Part shown: positions 1,747-28,081 of the stretch, piece after piece | Position numbering within the stretch: the first letter of the stretch is position 1 | Layout of the letters: each line of letters starts with the position of its first letter | Virus record (IMG/VR): IMGVR_UViG_3300028590_000074 | Location: 1 to 28,081 of that record | Length of the DNA stretch: 28,081 nt | Strand: one strand, 5' to 3' | Source: a virus | Position numbers and translations under genes: made by a program | The notes under the pieces: model-generated | What the model saw: only the letters and a program-made list of their open reading frames with translations | The model's database searches: none | Told to the model about the DNA's origin: nothing

Positions 1747-2216
1747 CGGGTCAGCGCGCGGTAGGATCCTTCGCAGGCGAGGCCGGCGATGCGGGCTTGG
1801 TCAGCATGCCGCGCAACTCGTTCCTGAGCTTCATCAAGCCGGCGCTGCACGTCGGCAAGCATTCTTTCGGTGGCTTCGGCTGCAGCGCTTCCGCCGGGAG
1901 TGGAGGGATTGACGGTGCAGGCGCGGGCACGGGCGGCAGCGAGCTCGTCGCGCAGGCTGCGACCAGCAGCAGCGGCACCAGCAACAGCGCCCTCCAGGGC
2001 ATCCGATTTCTTTCTGGCATCTTCGACCTCCTTCTGTACGGCCGCGGTGCGGCGGGTTCCTTCATCGAGCGCAGCGCGTACGGCACGGCCTGACTCGCGC
2101 TCCCAGTCCACGCGCTGGCTCACAACTTCCAGCTCGGCAAGACGCAGGCGGTTGGTCTGCAGCGCCGCGAAGGCGCCCACAACCAGCACGCACGCAATGG
2201 CGGCCTTGGTGATCAC
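1743..2216 (-). CDS. Rz: Rz-like inner-membrane spanin subunit (i-spanin)
   Basis: 157 residues. The start is a GTG at 2216 overlapping the endolysin stop as GTGA. Residues 3-19 form one hydrophobic segment (an N-terminal signal anchor), and the rest is a long charged, Ala-rich helical region, as expected of the periplasmic coiled coil of Rz. It has Cys residues at about 100 and 144. With Rz1 it would span the periplasm and fuse the inner and outer membranes in the final lysis step. The Rz1 frame lies wholly inside it. The call rests on topology, place in the cassette and the embedded lipoprotein gene rather than on sequence motifs. Confidence 0.88.
   Translation of the reverse strand: MITKAAIACVLVVGAFAALQTNRLRLAELEVVSQRVDWERESGRAVRAALDEGTRRTAAVQKEVEDARKKSDALEGAVAGAAAAGRSLRDELAAARARACTVNPSTPGGSAAAEATERMLADVQRRLDEAQERVARHADQARIAGLACEGSYRALTR
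1751..2020 (-). CDS. Rz1: Rz1-like outer-membrane lipoprotein (o-spanin), nested in Rz
   Basis: 89 residues in a different frame, entirely within Rz. The start at 2020 has a near-perfect ribosome site (AAGGAGGT, five bases from the ATG). The sequence has a short basic N-terminus, a hydrophobic core and a lipobox LLVAAC with the lipidated Cys at 23. A Pro-rich mature region (PPVPAPAPSIPPLP) follows, typical of Rz1 proteins. It would be exported, lipidated and inserted in the outer membrane, where it meets Rz. Two further Cys residues lie near 54 and 58. Nested Rz/Rz1 pairs are known from lambda. Confidence 0.9.
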   Translation of the reverse strand: MPERNRMPWRALLLVPLLLVAACATSSLPPVPAPAPSIPPLPAEALQPKPPKECLPTCSAGLMKLRNELRGMLTKPASPASPAKDPTAR

Positions 2217-2692
2217 GCTTCGCCCCTCGTGGCCGGCGCCGAACCGATCTGCAGGGACACGTGCGGCACTGGCCAGGACAGCGGCCAGCGGTAGCCCGAC
2301 ACACGGCTTTCGGGGAAGGCGCGGACGTTCACCTCGTTGCCCTGGTTCCCGCCCAGCACCAGCAGCCTGCCGTCGATGGTCAGGCCCTCCAGGAAGCCCA
2401 CATGCCCGCCACCGTCGCGCGTGAAGACCACGATGCAGCCGGGCGCCGGGCCTGGAAGCTGCTGCCCCCAGGTGAGATACGACTTGGCCGACTCGAAACG
2501 GCTGGACACGATCCCGACGTTCTCCAGGCAGAAGCCCACGAAGGCCGCGCACCAGGGCGTTTCGTCGTCCTTGATGCCGCCGCGCTTGATGGTCTTCCAC
2601 ATCTGCACGATCAGCGGGTTGTGCGTGACACCGGGTATTTCACGCACACCGATGTAGCGGCGCGCCTCGGTGATCCATGCGGGGTTGCTCAT
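2213..2692 (-). CDS. Endolysin, CHAP-like peptidase (TIGR02594-type)
   Basis: 159 residues starting at 2692, where the ATG overlaps the holin stop. The frame is open far upstream, but there it only shadows other genes. The catalytic pattern of this Cys-His peptidase family is visible: Cys48 in TPWCAAFVGFCLE, His97 in GGGHVGF, and a polar residue in GGNQGNEV near 116. No signal peptide is present, so it needs the holin to reach the cell wall, where it should cut peptidoglycan peptide or amide bonds. It ends in GTGA overlap with Rz. Order holin-endolysin-Rz/Rz1 is standard. Confidence 0.88.
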   Translation of the reverse strand: MSNPAWITEARRYIGVREIPGVTHNPLIVQMWKTIKRGGIKDDETPWCAAFVGFCLENVGIVSSRFESAKSYLTWGQQLPGPAPGCIVVFTRDGGGHVGFLEGLTIDGRLLVLGGNQGNEVNVRAFPESRVSGYRWPLSWPVPHVSLQIGSAPATRGEA

Positions 2693-3066
2693 TTGATGAT
2701 CTCCTTCACATCGCGGGCCAGCTCGCCCAGGTCGTGGTCCTTGCGCTTGTCGGCCCAGGCGAAGCCGGCGCGCACGATCACCCAGCCCGGCAACCCACAG
2801 GCGAAGATCAGGCCGCCAAGGGCCATCAGACCGACCACGCCGCCCACAGCCAGGTGCTGCAGTTGCAGGTACTCCACTGCCATGGCGCCGCCGCCCACGC
2901 TCGACACCACCGTGCAGATCAGGGCCATGGCCCACTCGCGTTTGCTCTTCGGTTGCACCCAGAGCATTACCACCACGGCGGCCAGGCCTGCCGGGATGCC
3001 GAAGGCGATGGCGGCCTTGTAGAGCAGGTATCCCCCTGCGGCGGTGGACGAAGTAGGTTCGCTCAT
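2689..3066 (-). CDS. Holin, probably three membrane segments
   Basis: 125 residues with hydrophobic segments at about 14-37, 46-62 and 72-98, and a charged C-terminal tail (DKRKDHDLGELARDVKEIIK), which fits a class I holin. A GGAAG ribosome site precedes the ATG at 3066. It opens the lysis cassette and overlaps the endolysin start by four bases. It should form the inner-membrane holes that release the endolysin and set lysis timing. A dual start as in lambda S is not obvious. The family is not recognised from sequence; the call uses topology and position. Confidence 0.8.
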   Translation of the reverse strand: MSEPTSSTAAGGYLLYKAAIAFGIPAGLAAVVVMLWVQPKSKREWAMALICTVVSSVGGGAMAVEYLQLQHLAVGGVVGLMALGGLIFACGLPGWVIVRAGFAWADKRKDHDLGELARDVKEIIK

Positions 3067-3117
3067 GGCTCAACTTCCGTAGGGCTGGGATTGAATGTTT
3101 CTGGTGCGGACGGATAC

Positions 3118-3777
3118 TCATGCCGCGGTGAGTACAAGCGTTGCAAGCGCATGCGCAGCGTTCCCACCAGGGTTGTAGGCAGCGGGGTCTTCCGTCGTTC
3201 CGACCACGCTTTTCACAGCACTGAAAGACTGAAACCGCCCAGAAACTTGGAAGTCCAGTGCGTACCCGGCCGGGGCTGACGCCGTGGCGAATGAACCGGC
3301 GAAAGCGCCTACAACGATGCACGCAGAAGGCGAGGCGGCCGGGATGCTGCCAACGCTCGGAGGGTTTGCAGTGTTGGAACCGGGTGCCGCAAAAGCGGCT
3401 GATGCCGATCGGACAACTGCCACGTTTCTTACTGCGTAGCTGTTGGCGTTGATGCCGTTCGAGGCGCCAAAGGTAAGCCGGAGAGCATCGCCTCCACCAC
3501 CTGCCGCCACTTTCGTCGCAACCCACAGGAGGCGCGTGCCACCAGTGGCCGCTAGATTGGCCCTGACCGTCCACCCAGTGCCTGACACCCCAGTGTCGAT
3601 CCCGATCGACGGAGCATTGGTTGTGCCAAGAGCTACGACGATGATGTCGCCCGCAGCTGCGGCGGGCATACTGATGTTGTGCACCGAAGCTGCGCCAGCT
3701 ACAGTCGAAACATCGTCGACGATGAGGGGGCCGACCCCTGCCGTCATCTTTGCGCTGGCTACGATTCCCGGTATCAC
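3118..3777 (-). CDS. Putative tail fibre or receptor-tip protein
   Basis: 219 residues, rich in Ala, Gly, Ser, Thr and Val, with a repetitive beta-strand pattern and no membrane segment or signal. I do not recognise a named family, but similar low-charge proteins are common as tail-tip or particle-surface components. Its ATG overlaps the stop of the 3774-4481 gene as ATGA, and it is the last tail gene before the lysis cassette, the place where host-range proteins usually sit. Host recognition is inference from position and composition. Confidence 0.6.
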   Translation of the reverse strand: MIPGIVASAKMTAGVGPLIVDDVSTVAGAASVHNISMPAAAAGDIIVVALGTTNAPSIGIDTGVSGTGWTVRANLAATGGTRLLWVATKVAAGGGGDALRLTFGASNGINANSYAVRNVAVVRSASAAFAAPGSNTANPPSVGSIPAASPSACIVVGAFAGSFATASAPAGYALDFQVSGRFQSFSAVKSVVGTTEDPAAYNPGGNAAHALATLVLTAA

Positions 3778-4481
3778 AGCGGCTCCGTCGAACCGAACAC
3801 GTCGGCCACGCTGCTTGAGACGAATTTCACCGTCACCGTGTCGCCCGGCTCCAGCACCAACGTGCCTCCCTTTGGCGGATTGAGCGTGACACCTGAGCCG
3901 GACAATGTCAGGTTGCCCGAGGCGCCTCGATTGGCGACGTGGTACTCCTCGGGGGCCGCGAAGCCGTCGCCGACGTCGAAAGTGCCCGTCTTCGCGCCAG
4001 TCGCCGTGAAACGCACGTAAGAGCCAGCATCGCTCGGATCGAAGGCCCGAGCTGCCGTGGCGTCAGTGATGAGAGGGGCGGCAGAACCCCCTCCACCGCC
4101 TCCATCCGCTTGGCCATGAACGCCACCGGGGCCACCACGGCAATCTCGGATCACCGTGGGGACGCCGCCTGCCGTGGTGATGTGGAACACCCGCGCATAG
4201 TCGACCAGGTTGTTCCAGTTGGTCATGCTGGTGGAAGTCGTCATCGCGCCTGTGGAACGCGCCACCACGAGGTAGTTCTCCGCTGAGTTGGTCAGCGTAA
4301 GCGTGCCGTCAACGATGTCGAATCCGCCCCATCTCGCACCACCGAGATACCCCCATGTGAGTGCTGCGCTGGTGGCCGGGTCACGCCCATAGACCTGCTG
4401 GTGCGCCAGGATGTCCAGCGCCTCGTTGACGATGGGAAATGGATCAGCGGGATTCCCGCCTGGTACGCGCGGAGCGCTCAT
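3774..4481 (-). CDS. Putative tail fibre protein downstream of the hub gene
   Basis: 235 residues. The N-terminal part (PADPFPIVNEALDILAHQQVYGRDP) is helical and may dock to the tail tip. A Gly-rich linker near 120-133 (DGGGGGGSA) separates it from a beta-rich C-terminal part (about 140-235) that ends in VTVKFVSSSVADVFG, resembling the end domains of fibre or spike proteins. It overlaps both neighbours by ATGA, right after the large hub gene, the usual slot for fibres. The split at the Gly linker suggests two modules that may be exchanged separately. Confidence 0.62.
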   Translation of the reverse strand: MSAPRVPGGNPADPFPIVNEALDILAHQQVYGRDPATSAALTWGYLGGARWGGFDIVDGTLTLTNSAENYLVVARSTGAMTTSTSMTNWNNLVDYARVFHITTAGGVPTVIRDCRGGPGGVHGQADGGGGGGSAAPLITDATAARAFDPSDAGSYVRFTATGAKTGTFDVGDGFAAPEEYHVANRGASGNLTLSGSGVTLNPPKGGTLVLEPGDTVTVKFVSSSVADVFGSTEPL

Positions 4482-7474
4482 GGTGCTGATGTCTCCAAAG
4501 TGGCGGCGAATCCCTCGCCAACGGTGTCCGAGAGTTGCTGTGCGGTGATCGTGATGAGGTCGCCGCTGGTGAATCCGTCAGCGGCAATCTCGGCCGCCGA
4601 ATACGTCCATTCGAGATCGGTGTCGTTGTGCGTCCGCACGAGGCTCAAGCCGTCGTAGACCTTGAAGCGGAAGGCCGCCAGGGTCTCACCCAGCGGCGCG
4701 AACGTGCCGGTGGTGGTGTACCGGGCCACCAGACGCGATCGGCGACCCGCCGACACCTCCAGGTCGCCGCCAGCGTTGGCGTGAGCTCGAAGGCGCCAAG
4801 GGCTGTAAGGCATCAGCGAGATGCCGCTGTCGGCGAACTCCTCCTCGATCACCGAGGACAGCAGCAGGTTGAGGGTCACCGCCTTGACTTGCTGCTCCAC
4901 GCCGATGTCGGTGGTCTCATTGACCATCCGGCGCAACATCGAGTCAAGCAGAACGAAGCGCGCCCCCGATGGGTGCTCGACGATCTTGTGCTCTTGACCA
5001 AGCTGACCGCGCAGGAACTGCGAGAGGTCATAGATGCGGTACAGGCCATCGTTGCCGACGAAATCGGCATGCACGAAACGCAACGGCTCGTCCCCGATGA
5101 CAGCAGCGTTGATGGTGCGGTCGACCGCCATGTCGGCAAGTGTCGAGCTGCTCAACTCGCCGCGGACGCGAACGCGAACCTTGCCGCTGTGCTGGAGAGA
5201 CCAGCTACCTCCTGCATGGCTAGCAAGCGCCGTGGTTGTCTCGCCGATCACTGCGGAGTCACCCGTGATGAACTCCTGTTCATAGGCTTCGGGAAGCCGT
5301 GCGCGCACGAACACTGCCCCTGGCCATTCGTCCGCCGCGCTGGATCGGCCAGGGGTGATGGCGACGTAGGGCCCAGGGGCATCGGCGTCAGCGTCACGCA
5401 GCGCAGGGATGTTGACCGTCTGCCACTCTGTCGGGGCAATGAGCACCGGTTCCGCCGGCACGTAGCCCTCGTAGGTTGGGTCGGGCGGATTGAGCACGCT
5501 GGCGTCATCAAGCGCGCAATCCCATTCGATCACCACCAGCGAATCGCGCTTCGTGATGACGCGCAACCTGTAGGTGCGACCCTGCGGATTGGTTGTCGTA
5601 ATGATCTGACCAGGTTGCACCCTGGCGTACTTGCGACCGCCCACACGCAGCGTCACACGCCCGAGGCCGGCCATGAGATCGAGCAGCATCGAGGTAACGG
5701 TGTTCTTGGCTTGCGCTGGCGTCATGCCAAAGGCCATCTCCACCACCCTCGTGCTCACCATGCTGCTGTCGATACGATCGCTGAACTCCGTGCCAACTGC
5801 GTAGTCGGCATGGGCGTTGCGATAGCGCAGCGCGATCTGCGCCGGCAACTCGCTCTCGTTCCCTTGCACCAACGGGAACGGTTCACCGGGGTCGGCATCT
5901 TCGTTGGCGCCCAGGTCACTCCAATCGACCGCCATGACGGGCACCGTGGCGCGCGGAGAGATGTAGAGCCTGTCGGTGCAGAACGCCTCGTACTTGGCGT
6001 AGGGTCGAAGTGTCTCCAGGTGCGCCCGCGTGCCGCTCACATCGCCTGTTGCATAGCCCTCCAGTGGCACGTCGTACAGATCCTCGTGCACCTGAAACTC
6101 ATTGGGCATGTAGCCCGCGCGGACCAGAAGCGCATCGACAGTCGCCTTGACGTTGGTTTCGAGCGTAGGCTGATAGACCGGGTCCGTGCCGTATCCACAA
6201 TAGAGACGCGAGAGTCGAAACGAGGCAAAGATGGCGCCGCGCATGTCAGTCACACCAACGGCGCCGAATGCCCAGGATCTGCTCCCGACCGCCAGAGCAT
6301 TGGGCGAAACGACCGTCATGAACAGGCTGTTGTCGACGTAGATCTCCATCGTGTGCAACGTGCCCGCCGGGAAGACGATTCCCAATCGGCCAGTCAATGG
6401 AAGGTTCGTCGCAACAACTTCAGGCTCAGGCAAGTTGAGGCGATGCCAAACCAGATCAAAGCTGGCGCCTGGGTTTGAAACGGAGTCGTGATCCCGAATG
6501 GAAAGCCTGTGGGAGTTCAGCCCATCGCTGAAGATCCAGAACTGAGTTGCTCCATTGGCGTAAGTCGGACCGCCCACGGGGGAGCGGATCTCCATGTCGA
6601 AAAAGTTGTAGTCGAGCGCGATGTATCGGTCGGTGGTGGCGAAGTCATGTGCGACGTCAAAGTCGCCACCGTCCGCCGGAAACTGGAATCGCGTTTGTCC
6701 GCCGTTTGGAAACGACCACTGAAGTTCGACGCCGGTCGTCTTAAAGTCCAGCGACGTGAACACGCCGCTCGCACTCGGCGTTGCGTTCTGAGCGGGAGGA
6801 AGCTGATCGCCGAGCTCCGTCACATTGGTCAACGGCATGTATATCCGCGCACCCGATAGATCAATTCCGGAAACGGTGTTGGCCTGGTGCTCCAGGTTCG
6901 GAATCTGCTTTCCATTGGTCAACTGCAGACCCGTGATGACGATGCTTGTTCGGCCGCGGTATGCCGGCGCATTGCCCACGCCCACCGCCGCTTCATAGGT
7001 CGGGTCCGGCAATTGATCGTCCGCTCCTGTGTAGACGACGTAGGAGGCCCAAATGCCTTCCTTGGTCGTGACTTCACTGCGCACGAGCTCGGCATTGAGC
7101 CAGTCACGAGCCACGTCGGTAGTCACGTTCTCGGAAAGCAGGATCATGACGTCACACTCGTAGGTGAACGTCGTGTACTTGCTGCCACCGCCCTTCCCTA
7201 CTTTCTTTCGCTGAGCGATTTCGCGCACGGGGCTGGCCCAGACAATCTGCCCCGTCAAGCGCGGCTTACCAGCCAGCCAAGGCACTGCCTGGCCATAGGC
7301 CGTTCCAATGATGTTGCGATCCTCCAGGCGCGGGCCCTGCTGGTTGCTGCCGCCCATGGCCGACGAGAGGAGCGAGCCCGCCATGAAGCCCCAGGAGGCG
7401 TATGAAATGCCCCAGAGCCCGCCAGTGAAGAACGAGCCGATGGCCGCGCCGATGTAGGGAAGAGCCTCAGACAT
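4478..7474 (-). CDS. Large tail-tip/hub protein (GTA-type 'megatron', gpJ-like role)
   Basis: 998 residues from the ATG at 7474, which overlaps the NlpC/P60 stop by eight bases. Residues 1-45 are hydrophobic and Gly-rich. Residues about 50-200 (RLEDRNIIGTAYGQAVPWLAGK, then AYRGRTSIVITGLQL.NGKQIPNLE) and about 440-680 (VDALLVRAGY, GYATGDVSG, RVGGRKYARVQPGQII) match the layout of the phage tail protein family that includes RcGTA gp15. Between them, about 205-430, lies an extra beta-rich block that looks like a LamG/concanavalin-type fold. The C-terminal third is beta-rich. It should form the base of the tail tip and contact the cell surface. The exact fold of the insert is inference. Confidence 0.85.
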   Translation of the reverse strand: MSEALPYIGAAIGSFFTGGLWGISYASWGFMAGSLLSSAMGGSNQQGPRLEDRNIIGTAYGQAVPWLAGKPRLTGQIVWASPVREIAQRKKVGKGGGSKYTTFTYECDVMILLSENVTTDVARDWLNAELVRSEVTTKEGIWASYVVYTGADDQLPDPTYEAAVGVGNAPAYRGRTSIVITGLQLTNGKQIPNLEHQANTVSGIDLSGARIYMPLTNVTELGDQLPPAQNATPSASGVFTSLDFKTTGVELQWSFPNGGQTRFQFPADGGDFDVAHDFATTDRYIALDYNFFDMEIRSPVGGPTYANGATQFWIFSDGLNSHRLSIRDHDSVSNPGASFDLVWHRLNLPEPEVVATNLPLTGRLGIVFPAGTLHTMEIYVDNSLFMTVVSPNALAVGSRSWAFGAVGVTDMRGAIFASFRLSRLYCGYGTDPVYQPTLETNVKATVDALLVRAGYMPNEFQVHEDLYDVPLEGYATGDVSGTRAHLETLRPYAKYEAFCTDRLYISPRATVPVMAVDWSDLGANEDADPGEPFPLVQGNESELPAQIALRYRNAHADYAVGTEFSDRIDSSMVSTRVVEMAFGMTPAQAKNTVTSMLLDLMAGLGRVTLRVGGRKYARVQPGQIITTTNPQGRTYRLRVITKRDSLVVIEWDCALDDASVLNPPDPTYEGYVPAEPVLIAPTEWQTVNIPALRDADADAPGPYVAITPGRSSAADEWPGAVFVRARLPEAYEQEFITGDSAVIGETTTALASHAGGSWSLQHSGKVRVRVRGELSSSTLADMAVDRTINAAVIGDEPLRFVHADFVGNDGLYRIYDLSQFLRGQLGQEHKIVEHPSGARFVLLDSMLRRMVNETTDIGVEQQVKAVTLNLLLSSVIEEEFADSGISLMPYSPWRLRAHANAGGDLEVSAGRRSRLVARYTTTGTFAPLGETLAAFRFKVYDGLSLVRTHNDTDLEWTYSAAEIAADGFTSGDLITITAQQLSDTVGEGFAATLETSAP

Positions 7475-24819: not shown

Positions 24820-25828
24820 TCAAGGCCTCCACGATGAGCGCCGTGACACGCTGCAGTTGGCGAGCAACGACGGAGAGGCCTTCGCGCTGGTGCAGGTCAT
24901 TGAAGTCGGTGTCCTTGAGCTGCCGCGTTCGCGCGTCGAACACCGGCCAGACGATCTCGCATGAATCCGTGTGCTTCGCCGCCAGGCGCGCACGCCTGCA
25001 GCCGGGATTCGGGCCCGCATGGTCGGTCGACTTCCAGTCGTCATCGGCGCAAATCAGAATGAACGCCTCGGGGTAGAGGCCGCGCAGCAGCTCCACTACC
25101 GCAGGCAAGTTGTAGGCATCGAGCGCCACGAACACGGGCCACTTCTTCTCCGTCGCCATGCGAATGGACAAGCCAGTGGCATAGCCTTCGCACACCAACA
25201 GCAGAAGGCTCTCCGGAGAGATTTCGCCCAATCGCACGCTGCAGCCGGTTTTTGCGAAGCCGGAGGTGAAGACCTTCTGCGGCAGCGGCTCGCCCGTCCG
25301 GCGATGCTTGCGCGGCCCGGGGTGGATACGCTGTACTGCACGCAACGCGTCCTCGCGCGGCAAGTCGTACCGCAACAATGGAATCAGGATCGATCCGTCG
25401 GGGAGATACCGGCATGCCTCGCCTTCCACCTGCTTGGACTTGAGATAGGCCGAGCTGCCGGTGCGAGATCCCGTGGCCCAGAGTTCGGCCGCGGAAAGGG
25501 CGGCTAGACGGGCCTCTTCGGCGCGCGCAGCGGCCTCGGCCCTCCGCGCTGCTTCGTGCTCCGCTTTCCGGCGCGCGCGCTCAGCCTCAGACAGCGGCGC
25601 CCAATCGACCTCGACCTTTTCGGACTTGCCGCTGCGCCAACTGCCAAACGTGCCAACCAGGTAGACCCCGCCGGCATCAGGGCGGAACTCGTACAGCTTG
25701 TACCAAGCCTTGCCCCCTACTCCGCAGGTTGTGCGCCGATTGAGGACAGGAAAGCGACTTCGGTCTTTCAAACGTAGGGCGATACCAAACTGCTCCATCT
25801 GATGGAGCACCTCTCGGTAGTTGTCCAT
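24812..25828 (-). CDS. Toprim-domain primase
   Basis: 338 residues. An N-terminal domain (about 1-75, with GKAWYKLYEF and GVYLVGTFGSWRSG) is followed by an Ala/Arg/Glu-rich helix (75-110). The Toprim domain has LLLVCEGYATGLSI (Glu214 as catalytic acid), FVALDAYN (236), LICADDDW (260-265) and the closing DTDFNDLH (306-313), the set seen in P4 alpha-like primases. It should make primers for phage replication together with the helicase. It starts one base overlapping the stop of the regulator gene (TGATG). No zinc finger is visible at the N-terminus. Confidence 0.92.
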   Translation of the reverse strand: MDNYREVLHQMEQFGIALRLKDRSRFPVLNRRTTCGVGGKAWYKLYEFRPDAGGVYLVGTFGSWRSGKSEKVEVDWAPLSEAERARRKAEHEAARRAEAAARAEEARLAALSAAELWATGSRTGSSAYLKSKQVEGEACRYLPDGSILIPLLRYDLPREDALRAVQRIHPGPRKHRRTGEPLPQKVFTSGFAKTGCSVRLGEISPESLLLLVCEGYATGLSIRMATEKKWPVFVALDAYNLPAVVELLRGLYPEAFILICADDDWKSTDHAGPNPGCRRARLAAKHTDSCEIVWPVFDARTRQLKDTDFNDLHQREGLSVVARQLQRVTALIVEALSD

Positions 25829-26196
25829 CAGTTCCGCTTGCTCTGCAGCAATGTGAGAAGGGCATCGCGCTGCTCGCGCAGCTCTCGGTTTTCTCGCTCC
25901 AGCGTCGTCTCGACCTTGCGCATGGCGCTGAGGTCAAACCCTCGGTCGTGGTTCATCCAGAGCAGCGGGGCATCGTTCCCACAGTGATTCATGACCAGCT
26001 TGAGGCGCGGCCAGATGATGCCTTCCTGTCCAGACTGCCAACGGCTGAATTGGGCCTTATCCAGCTTGAGATCGCGCTGGACCTGCTTCGCCTCGTAGCC
26101 GGCCAGCTCGACGCACAGATCAAGGGCCGCGCCCAGTGACTGTTTGCGCATGACCTCGGAGGGTGACACCACCAAAGGGATGGATACCTGTTGCAT
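25828..26196 (-). CDS. Phage DNA-binding regulator (helix-turn-helix), early operon
   Basis: 122 residues from the ATG at 26196; an open frame upstream to 26247 has no better start. Residues about 35-75 form a helix-turn-helix (AGYEAKQVQRDLKLDKAQFSRWQSGQEGI), followed by PLLWMNHDRGFDL, a stretch seen in early regulators of related phages. The C-terminus (about 90-122) is a heptad-like coiled coil (TTLERENRELREQRDALLTLL), good for dimerising. It follows the Cro-like gene in the same direction, the place of cII in lambda. Its ribosome site lies in one arm of a 9-bp inverted repeat, so translation or transcription may be controlled there. Confidence 0.72.
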   Translation of the reverse strand: MQQVSIPLVVSPSEVMRKQSLGAALDLCVELAGYEAKQVQRDLKLDKAQFSRWQSGQEGIIWPRLKLVMNHCGNDAPLLWMNHDRGFDLSAMRKVETTLERENRELREQRDALLTLLQSKRN

Positions 26197-26202
26197 TTCG
26201 AT

Positions 26203-26235: not shown

Positions 26236-26477
26236 TCGCGGAGGCAAAAATTTTTGACATGCGAACCAACCACACGAAAGAAAAACCCGCCGGCCGCGCG
26301 CCAGGTTGTGGCCAGGGAGGAAGAACCTTCAGGCGCGCGGCCACCGCTGCGAGCGGCCACATGGCGGAAAGACTGCCGGAAGAAGGGACGAAAGACCGGC
26401 AACCGCAAAACATGTCGAGGAGCAGGCTCGCAGATGGCTTCCGCGCTTGCCTCCAGCGGGGCACGGGATTGCGCATG
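26236..26477. other. Gap between the Cro-like gene and the early regulator
   Basis: About 240 bp with no convincing gene. Open frames on both strands are rich in Arg, Pro and Ser and have no ribosome site, so I treat them as chance. The stretch has a palindromic A5T5 (26246-26255, near the inverted repeat) and a GC-rich part with CCGGCCGCGCGCC. By analogy with lambda this space could hold an antitermination or early termination site, but no clear signal is visible. Confidence 0.4.
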
Positions 26478-26720
26478 TCAGTCCTGCACGGCCTTTGCCT
26501 CTGCGAGCTCGGGCCAAATGAGGCGCCAACGATCTGGGAACACCTTTGTCCGCGCCAGCGCGCCACCCGTGAACGCCTCAAGCCGCGCACCGTGTTCGAC
26601 CGGAATCGGGCGTTCTCCGGTAGCCATCTTTGCAACAAATGAGGGGCTTACACCAAGGTGCCGGGCGAGACGAACCGCTCTCCCATGCTCTTCGGACAAC
26701 CATGTTTTCAGGAGTTCCAT
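26478..26720 (-). CDS. Cro-like repressor, YdaS-type helix-turn-helix
   Basis: 80 residues from the ATG at 26720; a start at 26738 would add six residues but lies inside the first operator. The domain fits the YdaS/Cro-like family: MELLKTWLSEEHGRAVRLARHLGVSPSFVAKMATGERPIPVEHGARLEAFTGGA, followed by RWRLIWPEL, the usual end of such short proteins. It is divergent from the CI-like gene and is the first gene of the long leftward operon, so it should turn the switch toward lytic growth. Neither start has a good ribosome site; a short leader is likely. Confidence 0.85.
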   Translation of the reverse strand: MELLKTWLSEEHGRAVRLARHLGVSPSFVAKMATGERPIPVEHGARLEAFTGGALARTKVFPDRWRLIWPELAEAKAVQD

Positions 26721-26733
26721 GGCCGGATTATTG

Positions 26734-26790
26734 CCCATTGGGACATATCACGTCCACTCCCAATGGAAAATTTCTTTATTACCCGATGGG
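26734..26790. promoter_or_regulatory. Right operator cluster (three repressor sites)
   Basis: Three copies of a 14-bp motif lie between the Cro-like and CI-like genes: 26730-26743 (forward), 26758-26771 (reverse) and 26781-26794 (reverse). Their cores are CCCATTGGG, CCCAATGGA and CCCGATGGG with centres at 26738, 26763 and 26786, so 25 and 23 bp apart. This has the spacing of lambda OR. A possible extended -10 for the Cro-like gene (TGATATGT on the minus strand) lies between the first two sites; no clear repressor promoter was found. Confidence 0.82.
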
Positions 26791-26806
26791 GAATACCCTC
26801 GCTCGC

Positions 26807-27196
26807 ATGCAGACGGTTCACGACACAAGGCGGCAGCGCCTCGACATCCTGATCGGGCGATTTGGGTCTATCGCAGGCTTAAATGAGGCCCTGAGCTGGC
26901 CACGAACGGACTCCCGTTTGAGCCGCATTAAGAACGCCAACGCCAGAAGCGACCGGGACGGGAAGGTATTTCAGATGGGCGACAACATCGCCCGCGAGAT
27001 GGAGAGCACCCTAGGCCTTGGCACTGGCTGGATGGATACCCCGCCGTCCTATGCAGAGTTGCACGGTGAAAACGACCCTATCAGCAAGGCCGTCGATCTT
27101 CTGAGCGTCATGGAACCGGAGGCGCGCTACCAAGCCCTCCGCTTGCTAGATGCGCTTACTCAACCACCAAAGGCCAACGGCACCCACGGCAACTGA
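26807..27196 (+). CDS. CI-like lysogeny repressor without peptidase domain
   Basis: 129 residues from the ATG at 26807; an ATG at 26786 inside the third operator is less likely. The N-terminal half is a helix-turn-helix domain of the type found in beta-proteobacterial phage repressors (RRQRLDILIGRFGSIAGLNEAL, RLSRIKNANARSDRDGKVFQMGDNIAREMESTLGLGTGWMD). In long relatives the MGD...GWMD block joins to an S24 (LexA-like) autocleavage domain; here a short tail of about 50 residues follows instead, ending in PKANGTHGN. So it cannot be cut by the RecA-driven route seen in lambda. It should hold the lytic genes off by binding the six sites nearby. Confidence 0.78.
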   Translation: MQTVHDTRRQRLDILIGRFGSIAGLNEALSWPRTDSRLSRIKNANARSDRDGKVFQMGDNIAREMESTLGLGTGWMDTPPSYAELHGENDPISKAVDLLSVMEPEARYQALRLLDALTQPPKANGTHGN

Positions 27197-27226
27197 CCGG
27201 GCAAAATGCAAACGGTGAGCCTGGAC

Positions 27227-27715
27227 TTACTTTCCCGGCTTCCAGACAAGCTCGACAGGGCTGGTGAACTCCAAGACCTGCTCGCCTGCTTGGTATAGCG
27301 GAAGCTGCACCAGGATCTTCCTGGACTTCTGAGCAGCAGCGATGAAGCGGGCGTGAGGCCCTAGAAACACGGTCACAGAACCGCCGTCGGCTGAGGGCAG
27401 CCCCTCGTATGCCCGAGGCTGGCCGTCTCCAAACTTAACTGCAATGCTGCAAGGATCGTAGGTCGATCGACAAAGGATCTGACCCCGCTCGATCCGCACC
27501 AAAACGTCGACTCCGTACTTCGGATGCCTACGAACCGTGAGCGTTCCGTGATTTTTGCCAGCATAGGGAAACGCCAGATTCAGCGAGTTGTCGCTCTCTA
27601 TCTGAGCGTAGTAGGCGGTCTTGCCCGTCATTCGGTCTGCCTCGTCGTGGTACCTCCACTGACCCGCCGAAACAGACATCGGACCACATGCAAACGCAAG
27701 CCACAACCACCGCAT
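27227..27715 (-). CDS. Predicted secreted protein in the immunity region
   Basis: 162 residues from the ATG at 27715, with a GGGGGAGG ribosome site. The N-terminus MRWLWLAFACGPMSVSAG looks like a signal peptide with cleavage near SAG, so the protein should be periplasmic or exported. The mature part is a beta-rich domain (RMTGKTAYYAQIESDNSLNL, GTLTVRRHPKYGVDVLVRIERGQILC, FIAAAQKSRKILVQLPLYQ, QVLEFTSPVELVW) that matches a pattern of uncharacterised bacterial exported proteins known from many chromosomes and plasmids. It is oriented against the repressor gene, between the two operator clusters, where lambda has rexAB. It may be expressed in the lysogen and change the host surface or resist other phages; this is inference. 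Confidence 0.75.
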   Translation of the reverse strand: MRWLWLAFACGPMSVSAGQWRYHDEADRMTGKTAYYAQIESDNSLNLAFPYAGKNHGTLTVRRHPKYGVDVLVRIERGQILCRSTYDPCSIAVKFGDGQPRAYEGLPSADGGSVTVFLGPHARFIAAAQKSRKILVQLPLYQAGEQVLEFTSPVELVWKPGK

Positions 27716-27800
27716 CTCGGCCTCCCCCAGTTTTGGACACACGCGCCGCCCCTGCGGCACCCCACAGAGTTACACATTCTTTCGATTCGCTCAACCCCTG

Positions 27801-27864
27801 ATTGCCCACTGAAACCAGCAATATTTCCCATTGGGTATTGACACGATAAGACCCATTGGGAAAT
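27801..27864. promoter_or_regulatory. Left operator cluster (two strong and one weak repressor site)
   Basis: The same 14-bp motif as in the right cluster occurs at 27801-27814 (weak, core CCCACTGAA), 27823-27836 (core CCCATTGGG) and 27851-27864 (reverse, core CCCATTGGG on the plus strand). Centres at 27809, 27831 and 27856 are 22 and 25 bp apart. All six motif copies in the window keep ATTNCCCA on one side. Confidence 0.82.
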
Positions 27865-27867
27865 AAT
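27838..27867 (+). promoter_or_regulatory. Strong sigma70-like promoter of the rightward operon
   Basis: A perfect -35 TTGACA (27838-27843) and a -10 AATAAT (27862-27867) are 18 bp apart. One repressor site (27852-27860 core) fills the spacer and another lies directly upstream of the -35. Repressor bound here should block polymerase, as at lambda PL. A good ribosome site and the ATG at 27901 follow 25-33 bp downstream. Confidence 0.8.
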
Positions 27868-27900
27868 TCCTCCACGCCCACCCCGGGCGATGGAGGTCAC

Positions 27901-28081
27901 ATGTCAATCCACCGGATCACAGCCCTGGACACCGCCCAGGCCGTCCAGGCACACGCGGTCACTGTCGTCGAACTGGATGAGCGCGAGAGCGGCTTCGCGC
28001 TGCTGACGCAGTTCGGCATCACCGATTTCGCAGACACCGAGCCGGCCGAGCTGGCTCTGGTGCCGATCGAGGCCGACCACC
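27901..28081 (+). CDS. First gene of the rightward early operon (cut by the window end)
   Basis: An ATG at 27901 with a GGAGGT ribosome site (27892-27897) starts an open frame of 60 codons that continues past the window end. The translated part begins MSIHRITALDTAQAVQAHAV and continues with an acidic domain. I do not recognise the family. It has no signal peptide. Its place right after the PL-like promoter suggests an early phage function, in the region that should also carry integrase and recombination genes further on. Confidence 0.75.
   Translation, partial: MSIHRITALDTAQAVQAHAVTVVELDERESGFALLTQFGITDFADTEPAELALVPIEADH

Follow-up and report, generated by a model that had tools for sequence, protein, structure and literature searches.

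Operator clusters and genes at the locus

The stretch of DNA analyzed here, which we call the window, is 28,081 nt long and carries, near its right end, divergent genes for a Cro-like protein and a short CI-like repressor (Table 1). Three operator sites (OR) lie between these genes, overlapping PR, and a second cluster (OL) of two or three sites is found approximately 1.1 kb downstream of OR, within a PL-type promoter beyond the repressor gene. An initial annotation had described six copies of a 14-bp motif, ATTTCCCATTGGGT, arranged as two clusters of three, with cores 22–25 bp apart and with no further copies noticed. Allowing up to 3 mismatches, the motif gave five separate matches in the 28-kb window (starts 26730, 26758, 26781, 27823 and 27851) and one reverse-strand match overlapping a site, with the rest of the window empty; shuffled sequences averaged 1.3 matches, and 0 of 100 shuffles reached 6. 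The confinement of the motif to two clusters was therefore reproduced, as was the spacing, since the core centers lie at 26738, 26763 and 26786 in OR (25 and 23 bp apart) and at 27831 and 27856 in OL (25 bp apart). The TTGACA-N18-AATAAT promoter with an operator in its spacer is likewise present exactly as described. Of the six copies, however, only five are strong: the sixth, the outermost one of the second cluster (ATTGCCCACTGAAA, 27801–27814), gave no match to ATTTCCCATTGGGT at 3 mismatches in the window and scores far below the others (Table 1). At this position, the relative L205, which is 84% identical, does have a strong third OL site, and the window's third copy is therefore probably degenerate. 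The operator unit is better described as a 15-bp pseudo-palindrome, WTnCCCnnnGGGnAW, than as a 14-bp motif.

Table 1. Predicted genes, promoters and operator sites of the immunity region (window coordinates).
Feature	Position	Strand	Remarks
Gene at cII position	25828..26199	-	Assigned by position alone; no convincing family match
Cro-like protein, 80 aa, YdaS family	26478..26720	-	Pfam YdaS_toxin 8e-8, P22_Cro 0.003; phrog_35
PR promoter	26727..26756	-	-35 TGGACG, -10 AATAAT, 18-bp spacer; relatives' consensus TTGACA/AATAAT
OR1 TTGCCCATTGGGACA	26731..26745	+	In spacer of leftward PR (Cro-like gene); same place in relatives, -68/-69 from repressor start
OR2 ACTCCCAATGGAAAA	26756..26770	+	Center -44 from repressor start; adjoins expected PRM -35
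OR3 TTACCCGATGGGGAA	26779..26793	+	Center -21 from repressor start; overlaps expected PRM promoter
CI-like repressor, 129 aa	26807..27196	+	HTH domain and two C-terminal helices; no S24/LexA-type domain
Cargo gene, rex-like slot between repressor gene and OL	27227..27715	-	Predicted secreted protein; phrog_1848
Third OL site, weak/degenerate, TTGCCCACTGAAACC	27802..27816	+	6.1 bits, against 16–19 for the other sites
OL site TTTCCCATTGGGTAT	27824..27838	+	Immediately 5' of PL -35
PL promoter TTGACA-N18-AATAAT	27838..27867	+	-35 27838–27843, -10 27862–27867; similar in most of 43 relatives
OL site AGACCCATTGGGAAA	27849..27863	+	Occupies PL spacer
First gene of PL operon, truncated by window end	27901..28081	+	99% identical DNA in L229

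The restriction of the motif to the phage was also considered at the scale of a bacterial genome, using the 4.9-Mb genome bin that carries L205. This held for clusters, as the four prophage sites form the sole one, but not for single copies, given that the 15-bp pattern (WTNCCCNNNGGGNAW) occurs 17 times in the bin. Short motifs and the AT-rich frames common to promoter regions could produce chance repeats or promoter-associated sequence of no regulatory meaning; set against the shuffles, the single cluster in the bin, and relatives that keep the positions of the sites while their sequences diverge (see below), this explanation retains a negligible probability.

Among the predicted proteins, the Cro-like protein passes the curated cut-off of the YdaS family PF15943 (32.4 bits, versus 30). 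The repressor matches phrog_12107, annotated as “transcriptional repressor” (3e-12), and gave no match in Pfam or NCBIfam, nor to the whole-protein profile of the RacR family (NF049929). Its AlphaFold model (pLDDT 87) shows an HTH domain up to approximately residue 80, followed by long helices at residues 91–101 and 104–118, and this two-helix C-terminal segment is conserved among relatives; no S24 peptidase domain was found at the C-terminus, either with Pfam and NCBIfam or in the model. In a fold search, in which the matches listed were filled by HTH domains, the closest solved structure was the repressor (Rep) of Salmonella phage SPC32H in complex with the antirepressor Ant (PDB 5d50; see also 5d4z), with a Z-score of 10.7 and an rmsd of 1.4 over 70 residues at 24% identity, while a profile search found no sequence match between the two proteins. 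The N-terminal domain of PaaR2 (7nkv) was more distant (Z 5.7 over 63 residues; sequence E-value against the repressor family 0.012, which is weak). A match of residues 75–120 to uteroglobin (PDB 7vg7/7vf3; E-values between about 2e-5 and 2e-4) we regard as coincidental, because this is a secreted eukaryotic protein and every matched stretch taken singly has an E-value above 1.

The layout is kept across relatives

We collected relatives by scans with the repressor protein and with alignment A1, from which approximately 70 loci could be used. They come from isolates as well as from viral contigs and genome bins, and are related to one another, so that counts across them are not independent. 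Their named hosts are mainly Burkholderiales and Enterobacterales. The window's repressor itself had no match in the phage collection, and cultured relatives were reached via distant members only. A plain scan of viral contigs for palindrome pairs was dropped as too unspecific. OR was searched for de novo upstream of each repressor, as any three symmetric 15-mers with a spacing of 21–27 bp and without supplying a motif. In most loci, this placed the centers at about -68/-69, -44 and -20/-21 from the repressor start, each locus having its own operator sequence; among the 44 close relatives, OR1 and OR2 were invariably 23–25 bp apart. In some weak cases, the third site was left out of account or positions were assigned by hand; hand rules also determined the operator register at certain loci, and the register of the group with His at repressor residue 47 is partly uncertain.

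To find OL, a matrix was built from the OR sites of each locus alone, and its best match outside OR was set against 20 shuffles, of which the best-scoring one had to be exceeded. This was the case in 63 of 70 loci, where the matrix identified one further pair of sites downstream of the repressor; the predicted pair sits in a TTGACA/TAATAAT promoter. The distance between OR and OL was 0.8–3.9 kb in 42 of the 42 members with a clear OL pair. Since the outer frame is common to all operators, matrices taken from loci with a different core also located the true OL, with a success rate of 68%; finding OL is therefore no proof of specificity by itself, a point that is carried by the co-variation tests described below. 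Among cultured phages, Atpa001 and BgManors32 have the same layout, which also occurs in the Rac prophage of Escherichia coli K-12. Overall, approximately 60 related phages keep the layout while the sequence of the sites changes in step with the two proteins predicted to read them, which strongly supports the reading as an OR/OL switch that had been put forward for the window.

The promoters are part of this conserved arrangement. In most of 43 close relatives, PL reads site-TATTGACA-site-TAATAAT, with some variation. When 44 upstream regions were anchored on the repressor start, PR appeared as a minus-strand TTGACA at -51 to -56 and AATAAT at -75 to -80, with OR1 in the spacer, and the -10 element of PRM, the repressor's own promoter, as TnnAAT at -13 to -8. 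Transcription from PRM would therefore begin on the first base of the repressor gene or close to it. A Shine-Dalgarno-like sequence precedes the repressor in only 1 of the 44 loci, and the transcript probably has no leader or almost none. The window's own PRM -10 is a poor fit to the family consensus, so that the exact start is uncertain here, and the window's PR also has a variant -35 (Table 1). Lambda CI activates PRM from about -42, and OR2 is centered near this position.

Operator sequence follows the recognition regions of both proteins

Half-site types among the relatives include TTaCCCA, TTcCCCg, TTAGCCA, ATATCCC, ATAGCGn and ATAGCAC. By corrected mutual information, the two strongest pairings linked half-site base 6 to repressor residue 47 and half-site base 4 to residue 40. 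Arg at residue 40 went with C at base 4 in 16 of 16 cases, and Gln mostly with G, A or T; at residue 47, which lies just past the recognition helix, Arg went with C at base 6, Asp or Glu with G, Asn with A, and His mostly with C or T. We further compared operator distance with protein segments by sliding-window partial correlations. Operator distance tracked mainly residues 37–56 of the repressor (partial r up to 0.41), and a permutation test of residues 35–50 gave 0 of 2,000. For the Cro-like protein, the peak was at residues 22–37, the region of its recognition helix (r up to 0.38), and in both proteins the remainder of the HTH domain was close to zero. A smaller signal at repressor residues 65–88 probably reflects shared ancestry, which the co-variation tests do not fully remove. 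With the operator tracking both recognition regions, the predicted sites are very probably read by the CI-like as well as the Cro-like protein.

One of the relatives, L163, has an S24-type C-terminal domain, yet its HTH type and operator are the same as those of short relatives, from which it follows that the operator goes with the HTH domain. The same protein could be taken to indicate that the short CI-like gene, whose product is about half the length of a classical CI, arose by decay of a repressor, with loss of the C-terminal domain, and that the sites serve either the Cro-like protein or some third regulator. We consider this very improbable, given that intact short forms are conserved across approximately 40 divergent phages, and that operator sequence tracks the short repressor's own recognition region. 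Related HTH domains occur on different C-terminal modules, namely S24-type in L163, RacR-type in L174, and the short two-helix tail; among other long relatives (L165, L175, L216 and L220–L222 were compared), an S24-type module is likely, judging by length.

Taken together, we are highly confident that the window holds the immunity region of a temperate phage on the lambda plan, in which a short repressor of CI type and a Cro protein of YdaS type would act on 15-bp pseudo-palindromes.

Comparison with known switches

The lambda switch is alike in having three OR sites approximately 24 bp apart, OL at PL, a repressor gene and PL in the same orientation, and cargo between the two at the rexAB position; the distance between its OR and OL is about 2.3 kb. 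It differs in its operator, Cro and repressor families, and in that lambda CI has a self-cleaving cooperative domain. In the Rac prophage of E. coli K-12 (RacR/YdaS/YdaT), the repressor gene is likewise divergent from a gene for a YdaS-type Cro, and OR contains TTAGGCnnnGCCTAA sites 25–26 bp apart (TTAGGCGACGCCTAA and relatives at -87, -61 and -36), which are unlike the window's operators in sequence. A profile comparison found no significant match between the HTH domain of RacR and the window's repressor family, although the C-terminal segment of RacR matches that of Enterobacterales relatives such as L174, whose HTH domain is that of the window's family. RacR, a repressor without a LexA-type domain, is an octamer by size exclusion (PMC11014345). 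Downstream of racR (L225, positions 5620–5680), two RacR-type sites flank a TTGACA promoter and form a candidate OL/PL; the literature passages covered contain no mention of this pair. In prophage CP-933P of E. coli O157:H7 (PaaR2/YdaS/YdaT), the operators are 18-bp palindromes with consensus GTTTAGTAA, compared with 15 bp in the window, and a toxin-antitoxin pair takes the place of the cargo gene. According to PMC8630535, PaaR2 forms octamers and has no sequence similarity to lambda CI; it shuts down PR and, at low level, activates PRM, and a PL with OL sites is also under its control.

With Rac and CP-933P as precedents, this kind of switch is already known; what is new is an unnamed repressor family, its operators, and approximately 50 co-varying sets of repressor, Cro and operator. 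Phage immunity groups are usually known from few model systems, whereas here about 50 homologous sets can be read from sequence. These provide a testable recognition code for how two proteins and five binding sites shift specificity jointly, and a natural test bed for the evolution of phage immunity types; they could also help predict which prophages exclude which phages, and allow one to ask how repressors without a self-cleaving domain cooperate and are induced. In cluster A mycobacteriophages, repressor and operator sequence also diverge together across a phage group (PMC6550527); in contrast to the phages studied here, their repressor is unrelated, and asymmetric sites (stoperators) are scattered genome-wide without an OR/OL layout.

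Predicted mechanism, cooperation and induction

The sites, spacing, promoters, conservation and co-variation read from the sequence point to a mechanism in which binding, PRM activation, cooperation, looping and induction are predicted steps. In the lysogen, the repressor would cover OR1, OR2 and both OL sites, and thereby switch off PL as well as PR, which would serve cro, the cII-like gene and replication; at OR2, it would be positioned to activate its own promoter, PRM. The Cro-like protein would compete for the repressor's sites and favor the lytic state. Cooperation between repressors may come from the C-terminal two-helix segment in place of a LexA-type domain, and could act inside each cluster and perhaps also through an OR–OL loop of approximately 1.1 kb. 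It had been pointed out initially that the repressor lacks the domain normally used for cooperation; we indeed saw no LexA-type domain, but this is not unprecedented, as RacR and PaaR2 form octamers likewise.

In an alternative version of the same OR/OL switch, the short repressor would bind to every site on its own and neither cooperate nor form loops. Besides the missing LexA-type domain, two points speak for this: promoter geometry alone could set the spacing, because PR and PL each put one site in the spacer and one beside the -35 element, and the 933W repressor is reported to be non-cooperative on adjacent sites (PMC3317979). Nevertheless, the two-helix segment is conserved, the octamers of RacR and PaaR2 are formed without that domain as well, and OL is kept within the same range in every member with a clear pair, although repression of PL could account for the latter by itself. 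On balance, we regard independent binding as unlikely, if still a serious contender. We tentatively propose, at somewhat less than an even chance for the proposal as a whole, that short repressors lacking a LexA-type domain, each with a YdaS-type Cro as partner, form a large family with a readable specificity code (residue 40 setting half-site base 4, and residue 47 base 6), in which both proteins co-evolve on the same operators, immunity types are predictable from sequence, cassettes pass whole from phage to phage, and the two C-terminal helices serve cooperation and looping.

Without a LexA-type domain, self-cleavage is unlikely, and induction would probably need an antirepressor or another signal. 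SPC32H Rep is inactivated by the antirepressor Ant, and from the fold match to this protein, antirepressor-driven induction may be guessed for the window's phage.

Cassette exchange and the cargo slot

From position 27891 onward, the window and viral locus L229 share 99% identity, and at 26278–26409 they share 94%. Between these flanks (L229 positions 2113–3990), L229 carries a different Cro-like gene, a lipoprotein gene and an unrelated HTH repressor of 139 aa, with TTAGAGTT-type repeats at both ends of the cassette. This makes the difference an immunity-region (heteroimmunity) swap of the lambda/434 kind.

The slot between repressor gene and OL holds one small variable gene in most relatives. 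This cargo gene is co-oriented with the repressor gene in 31 of 43 relatives, whereas it is opposed to it in the window, and in 24 of the 43 the N-terminal stretch of its product is strongly hydrophobic, as is usual for lipoproteins and for secreted or membrane proteins. In L206, the phage's own repressor gene, which is of the TTAGCC type, is directly followed by a second one (6452–6835) whose operator type is TTCCCC; no operators matching this second repressor were found at the L206 locus, and it could make lysogens immune to a different phage group. In L014 (2055–3200), the slot encodes a protein with the N-terminal domain of type I restriction HsdR (Pfam HSDR_N; phrog_4225, endonuclease).
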